NCBI GenBank assembly: GCA_020846295.1
Contig: JADLEF010000005.1
Coordinates: 1-34,229 of the forward strand
Direction: 5' to 3'
Origin: Acidimicrobiales bacterium
GTDB lineage: Bacteria; Actinomycetota; Acidimicrobiia; Acidimicrobiales; CAIXPF01
Length of the DNA: 34,229 bases
Below, piece by piece: positions 31,094-31,810 of this stretch. The notes beneath the pieces were generated by a model that saw only the letters and a program-made list of their open reading frames with translations, was not told where the DNA came from and did no database searches. The position numbers and the translations under genes were made by a program. Each line of letters begins with the position of its first letter. The first letter of the stretch is position 1.

Positions 31094-31711
31094 TCAGCTC
31101 GGACGCTCACCCACGTTCGGCCGTTCGGTCCGGGTGCGCTTCAGCTCCCAGAAGCCGGGGACGTTCATGCAGGCCACCATCCCGTCCCACAGCTGCAGCG
31201 AGAGCTCACGGGACGGCACCTTGGTGATGACCGGGCCGAAGATGCCGATCCGCTCGCCGTCCGCGTTGCGCAGGGCGATGATCGGCGTGCCGACGTCCTC
31301 GCCGACGAGCGCCATCCCGTCGTCGTGGCCGGCGCGGACCGCATCGTCCCAGGACTCGTCCTCGAAGGCGTCGGCGTGACGCCGGTCGAGGCCGACCGCG
31401 GTGAGCGCCTGCTCCATCGGGAAGTCCACGTCCCCGTCGTGGTGCACCCGGCTGGCGAGCTCCCAGTAGAGCTTCTCGATCGGCGTGTCGCCCTCGGCGG
31501 CGCGCACCGACTCCATGACCCGCAACATCTTGTGGGTCTTGACCACCCGGTCGTAGTACGGGCTGTCAGGGGCGGGGTTGTTCTTGACCAGCAGGCTGAT
31601 CGGCCGCCAGTTGACCTTCAGCTGTCGCTCCGGCGCGACCTCTTCGACGACCCAACGGGCCGTCACCCAGCACCACGGTCAAATGGGGTCGACCCAGAAC
31701 TCGATGTCCAT
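31094..31711 (-). CDS. Predicted selenoprotein: Rv2466c/DsbA-like oxidoreductase with Sec-Pro-Trp-Cys site
   Basis: Read from the ATG at 31711, the frame gives MDIEFWVDPI, one TGA (31679-31681), then PWCWVTARWVVEEV and on to the stop at 31094: 205 residues if TGA is read as selenocysteine. The TGA stands exactly at the first Cys of the CPWC redox motif of the mycothiol-dependent nitroreductase Rv2466c family (DsbA-like thioredoxin fold). The remainder matches that family from memory: VGEDVGTPIIAL (cis-Pro loop), IFGPVITKVP and FWELKRTRTE; Rv2466c is about 207 residues. An AAGGA site precedes the ATG. A SECIS-like hairpin follows the TGA. TGA is an ordinary stop for most genes here, so recoding must be local. 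The ORF track wrongly starts it at 31666. A point-mutation pseudogene is the main alternative. Confidence 0.85.
31646..31664 (-). promoter_or_regulatory. Bacterial SECIS-like hairpin
   Basis: On the transcript GACGGCCC and GGGUCGUC pair in an 8-bp stem (one G-U pair; a further U-G pair is possible) closed by the loop GUU. The loop starts 22 nt after the UGA and its first base is G, within the known limits for bacterial SECIS elements (G in the first two loop positions, roughly 16-37 nt from UGA). It lies within the coding region, as bacterial SECIS elements do. Confidence 0.78.
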
Positions 31712-31810
31712 GTTCGGCTGTCCTTTCTGCGTGAGGGATACCGATCGCGACGGTAGCCGCCGGTGCCGTCCGGACAGCACGTTCGGCGAAAGGGGACTAG
31801 AACGGTCGGT

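Follow-up and report, generated by a model that had tools for sequence, protein, structure and literature searches.

The UGA-containing gene and its surroundings

The window analysed here is a 34,229-nucleotide stretch of DNA from an Acidimicrobiales bacterium. On its minus strand, positions 31094–31711 hold a gene for a 205-residue Rv2466c-like (PF22234) reductase that is very probably a selenoprotein. The frame runs from an ATG start codon (31709–31711) through ten codons to an in-frame TGA at codon 11 (31679–31681) and then stays open to a second TGA, the terminal stop (31094–31096); translation of the minus-strand frame across 31094–31711 revealed no further in-frame stops. Extended through the first TGA, the N-terminus reads MDIEFWVDPI-U-PWCWVTARW. 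As a preliminary description of this locus had proposed, the TGA takes the place of the first Cys of a CPWC motif to give UPWC, and the second Cys (residue 14; TGC at 31670–31672), invariant across all Sec-form sequences, and the remaining frame are intact. The mechanical list of open reading frames contains, in the same frame, only a 190-residue internal fragment that starts at a GTG, and upstream extension in frame gives the full-length protein, again as described earlier; plain ORF calling cuts the Sec-form enzyme short. The Shine-Dalgarno-like element noted before as AAGGA is found as AAAGGA (31721–31726), 9 nt 5′ of the ATG, and is a consensus match only.

Immediately 3′ of the gene, on the same strand, are two tandem polysaccharide-deacetylase-like genes (PF01522; 29146–31072). 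They were not seen beside the gene of a 77% identical relative (locus L020), the one relative compared, which has no neighbour in common with the locus studied here. Because no neighbour is shared in this comparison, the gene context gives no functional clue and no sign of a conserved operon.

In comparison with 76 relatives, the codon differences over codons 3–10 number 216 synonymous and 61 non-synonymous; for codons 23–200 the counts are 2869 and 6738, respectively. The codons 5′ of the UGA hence change in the manner of coding sequence, and the frame is translated through the UGA.

Conservation of the UGA codon

We scanned 84,980 species genomes and obtained 48 relatives, most of them labelled Acidimicrobiia or an order or family within that class. 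All 48 were independently assembled, and each has TGA at codon 11 in an otherwise open frame. Even sampling of the class (395 genomes) gave the Sec form in 44 genomes, all of which were translated and all of which read UPWC; in our alignment, TGA occupies codon 11 in 77 Sec-form rows. The Sec form is confined to Acidimicrobiia in a phylum-wide sample of 397 genomes, where the best homologues outside the class carry Cys. The closest TGA-free homologues, at 47–59% identity, have CPWC or CPFC with a TGC or TGT codon. The U/C pairing that the preliminary description had suggested looking for is thus present in related genomes, and the relatives show a stop at one codon and not the scattered stops that would mark a pseudogene.

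A nonsense mutation in a decayed gene or a base-call error would be another reading of the TGA, and the fragmented draft state of this genome, with its damaged-looking selC (see below), is in its favour. However, such an accident would have to recur at one codon in 48 of 48 independently assembled relatives whose remaining frame is open and under coding constraint. This conservation refutes a pseudogene or sequencing error, to which we assign a negligible probability.

A SECIS-like stem-loop follows the UGA

Single-sequence folding and covariation identify a SECIS-like stem-loop of 9 bp at 31645–31665 (minus strand), with the 3-nt loop GUU at 31654–31656. The stem begins at nucleotide 14 after the UGA, 22 nt separate the UGA from the loop, and the loop is GUU or GGU across the Sec genes. 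The bacterial SECIS feature of a stem-loop directly after the UGA whose small loop contains a G, worded here as in the Sargasso Sea paper (PMC1088965), is therefore present, and it is degraded in Cys homologues. RNAalifold on the alignment gives a slightly shorter upper stem and a weak helix near the UGA; we retained the 9-bp stem from single-sequence folding, of which 7 upper pairs are common to the RNAalifold structure.

Among 60 distinct sequences, 99.1% of stem cells are paired, with 15 both-side changes compared to a shuffled mean of 2.1. Slid versions of the stem are paired at 62.8% or less. Stem covariation is 0.130 versus 0.062 when shuffled, and 0 of 500 shuffles were as high. The clearest single case joins the third bases of the Thr17 and Val21 codons, which pair as GC, AU, UA, GU, CG or UG in 65 of 65 Sec genes and in 31% of 16 Cys homologues. 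Protein selection cannot account for this pair because both sites are synonymous; across codons 12–22 as a whole there are 115 synonymous and 2 non-synonymous differences, with almost no amino acid changes.

These data also bear on the possibility that the true product is the 190-residue protein, initiated at the in-frame GTG soon after the TGA that the mechanical gene finder picked, with the upstream codons untranslated. Such a protein would be without the UxxC motif and without the first strand of the predicted fold, which is encoded by codons 5′ of the UGA; yet codons 3–10, which form that strand, evolve like coding sequence. Internal initiation would also leave unexplained a covarying stem over codons 16–22 that is missing in Cys homologues, and we consider it very unlikely.

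Selenocysteine machinery

The genome assembly containing the window is a fragmented draft, 88% complete. A search for selA, selB, selD and selC, proposed in the preliminary description, was answered in part: selA is above cut-off at C291:24150–25322, selD is above cut-off on contig C3 with an in-frame UGA of its own (GAGUACKLG), selB is represented by its N-terminal 211 residues (220.8 bits) running from C291:26656 into the contig end, and an intact selC is missing from the assembly. As a UGA gene, this selD (G000:C3:2940–3896; L018:1483–2556) is a second selenoprotein candidate of the genome. The SelB fragment (G000:C291; L009:1501–2134) reads DVPGPVRFIKNML, with Pro-Val-Arg after the PG of the G-domain, a position at which this domain usually has His.

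The best tRNA-Sec match in this genome, at C1:20624–20704 (L001:1501–1581), has the anticodon UCA. We first accepted it as selC and dropped it after comparison with relatives showed a foreign 5′ part: about 65 nt are kept, from the anticodon arm to CCA, and the 5′ part is replaced by unrelated sequence, unlike the complete selC of two genomes of the same genus (G227 and G338). A pattern search over the assembly for the missing 5′ part found nothing elsewhere. Three origins of the match are conceivable: an attachment-site-like 3′ partial copy, a chimera made in assembly, and a gene that was damaged or became a pseudogene. selA, too, occurs in same-genus genomes, and with selB cut by the contig end we infer the full Sec machinery of this genome from its relatives.

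In the class sample, SelA is found in 257 of all 395 genomes and in 42 of the 44 that carry the Sec form; a Fisher test that takes no account of relatedness gives p 6e-7. The two Sec-form genomes that have no SelA match at threshold are G345, which is 68% complete, and G292, which has an intact selC. A tRNA-Sec-model match was obtained in each of the 36 Sec-form and near-Cys genomes tested; 31 genomes score at least 60 bits, and matches that are probably ordinary tRNAs score as high as about 49 bits.

Alternatively, the UGA might be read as Trp or Cys instead of Sec, through suppression or a change of the code across the genome, which is a possibility in logic only. The same gene ends in TGA as its normal stop, the genome has selA, selB and selD, and both UGA-containing frames examined place the UGA at a catalytic position (UPWC here, GAGUACK in selD); the SECIS-like stem would moreover lack an explanation. 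We regard this decoding as extremely unlikely. Internal initiation and code reassignment were thus both rejected on the upstream coding constraint, the covarying stem, the machinery genes and the normal TGA stop.

The selenoprotein claim of the preliminary description is borne out by U/C pairing, the covarying SECIS-like stem, recurrence in dozens of genomes, and the presence of selA, selD and a partial selB. As judged from these sequence data, the gene product is very probably a genuine selenoprotein belonging to the Rv2466c/Mrx2 (DsbA-like, PF22234) family, the UGA being read by SelB and Sec-tRNA.

Probable gain and loss of selenocysteine

We built a tree of 108 rows with the Sec column left out. 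One group (SH-aLRT 98) unites the Sec rows with six Cys rows, and the Sec/Cys label needs five changes on the tree. The simplest history would be one Cys-to-Sec gain and about four returns to Cys; well-supported branches alone force only two changes, and the four reversions are hence an estimate. The nested Cys-form loci in the Sec clade are L164, L165, L174, L166, L173 and L176 (genomes G027, G031, G238, G043, G265 and G277, respectively). SelA is kept in all six genomes, which have apparently reverted from Sec to Cys without losing the Sec trait.

Family, fold and proposed mechanism

When Sec is entered as Cys, the protein scores 140.5 bits against Pfam PF22234 (curated cut-off 27) and, in a PDB sequence search, matches the Rv2466c crystal-structure sequences at an E of about 1e-41; no NCBIfam model recognises it above cut-off. 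A structure model built from 20 Sec-form sequences has a pLDDT of 93.5, and its best PDB fold matches are the Rv2466c chains 4zil, 4nxi and 5xur (E 2e-16, TM about 0.8). FrnE ranks far lower as a fold match, with an E of 9e-6 against 2e-16 for Rv2466c. Pfam, the PDB sequence search and the predicted fold agree on membership in the Rv2466c subfamily, as first suggested. A separate PF22234 branch in Acidimicrobiia (L068–L097) has mostly CPWA or CPFA, without the second Cys, and these proteins are putative monothiol versions.

Rv2466c, a reductase induced by SigH and dependent on mycothiol, also activates nitro-prodrugs; its nucleophile is Cys19 and its resolving residue Cys22 (PMC8280269, PMC11841060). 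In the alignment, Sec takes the place of the first Cys of the Rv2466c CPWC, the nucleophilic Cys19. We infer Sec incorporation and the chemistry, substrate and electron donor of the protein as follows. SelB with Sec-tRNA would decode the codon-11 UGA as Sec, directed by the stem-loop just 3′, to yield a U-P-W-C active site in which, by homology to Rv2466c, Sec would make the nucleophilic attack and Cys14 would act as the resolving residue. The selenolate would reduce an S-thiolated protein or other disulfide-type substrate, after which a selenenylsulfide would form with Cys14 or a small thiol. Regeneration would come from the small thiol of the cell, probably mycothiol in the order of this bacterium, or from thioredoxin. 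From general selenium chemistry, Sec would be expected to exchange faster than Cys and to have a lower pKa.

The link to mycothiol drawn in the preliminary description has support in part of the clade. The genome studied here has MshC-like (423 bits) and MshA-like (408 bits) genes, below the curated cut-offs of 485 and 462.5, respectively, and most genomes of its order have a second MshC-model match of about 386–434 bits; these genes make mycothiol a plausible partner in this order. In Sec-form genomes of the families f36, f47, f50 and f51, there is a single MshC-model match, at the CysS level of about 265–289 bits. As MshC is represented in Sec-form genomes of other orders by this CysS-level match alone, mycothiol dependence cannot be assumed clade-wide, and in most of the clade the selenoprotein might use thioredoxin or another thiol. 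Reduction by Trx has been reported for C. glutamicum NCgl2478, about 120 times less efficiently (PMC8280269), but the biochemically studied relatives in the family use mycothiol (PMC8280269, PMC11841060). MshA-like genes also occur in most Sec-form genomes of these four families, and MshC could be divergent or replaced. We view a partner other than mycothiol in most of the clade as possible but rather doubtful; it is compatible with the selenoprotein reading and alters the electron donor only.

Significance and relation to known selenoproteins

The Sec-containing Rv2466c/Mrx2 reductases may constitute a new family, with one gain in Acidimicrobiia, about four Cys reversions with the machinery kept, and use of mycothiol in one order and of another thiol or thioredoxin in the MshC-less orders. 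We put this combined account forward tentatively, at a little under even likelihood. The gene adds a well-supported selenoprotein subfamily to Acidimicrobiia, a class in which selenoproteins are hardly described: in the open-access literature searched, just two papers name both, each in passing. One gain and about four reversions would provide a natural Sec/Cys comparison set within an enzyme family responsible, in its Cys form, for nitro-prodrug activation in M. tuberculosis, and the benefit of Sec in a thiol-dependent reductase becomes a directly testable question.

DsbA-like form 1 (PF01323, UxxC) and form 2 (DxxUP) are among the 119 prokaryotic selenoprotein families catalogued in 2026 (PMC13188914); neither PF22234 nor Rv2466c appears in the table of that catalogue, and the word mycothiol is absent from its text. 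We found no report of the Rv2466c/Mrx2 subfamily as a selenoprotein in the open-access literature. The earlier remark that no characterised selenoprotein of this subfamily was known stands within that literature, although DsbA-like UxxC selenoproteins have been catalogued since 2005.

DsbA-like form 1 (PF01323; Sargasso Sea 2005; GOS 'DsbA 1' and 'DsbA 2') shares the DsbA/thioredoxin fold and UxxC with the Sec protein and is abundant in marine samples, where Sec-form Acidimicrobiia occur too. In fold, the Sec protein is far nearer Rv2466c than FrnE, and we take COG2761 to be the FrnE type. The Sargasso Sea DsbA-like selenoproteins were assigned to COG2761 (PMC1088965), which sets form 1 apart from the Sec protein by description. 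Some of the catalogued metagenomic DsbA-like selenoproteins may nevertheless belong to the PF22234/Rv2466c subfamily. The Sec protein reads D-P-I-U-P, in likeness to DsbA-like form 2 (PF01323, DxxUP, MDP6049977.1); form 2, however, compared by description only, is catalogued apart from UxxC and named as a crotonase/enoyl-CoA hydratase family.

The closest known system is Rv2466c/Mrx2 of M. tuberculosis (PF22234; 4nxi, 4zil, 5xur), which belongs to the same profile family, has the same predicted fold and is 36–37% identical. The [U/C]PWC position is common to both, and the resolving Cys is kept in the Sec protein. Rv2466c/Mrx2 and the C. glutamicum proteins NCgl2339 and NCgl2478 have Cys first in the active site, whereas the Sec protein has UGA followed by a SECIS-like stem.
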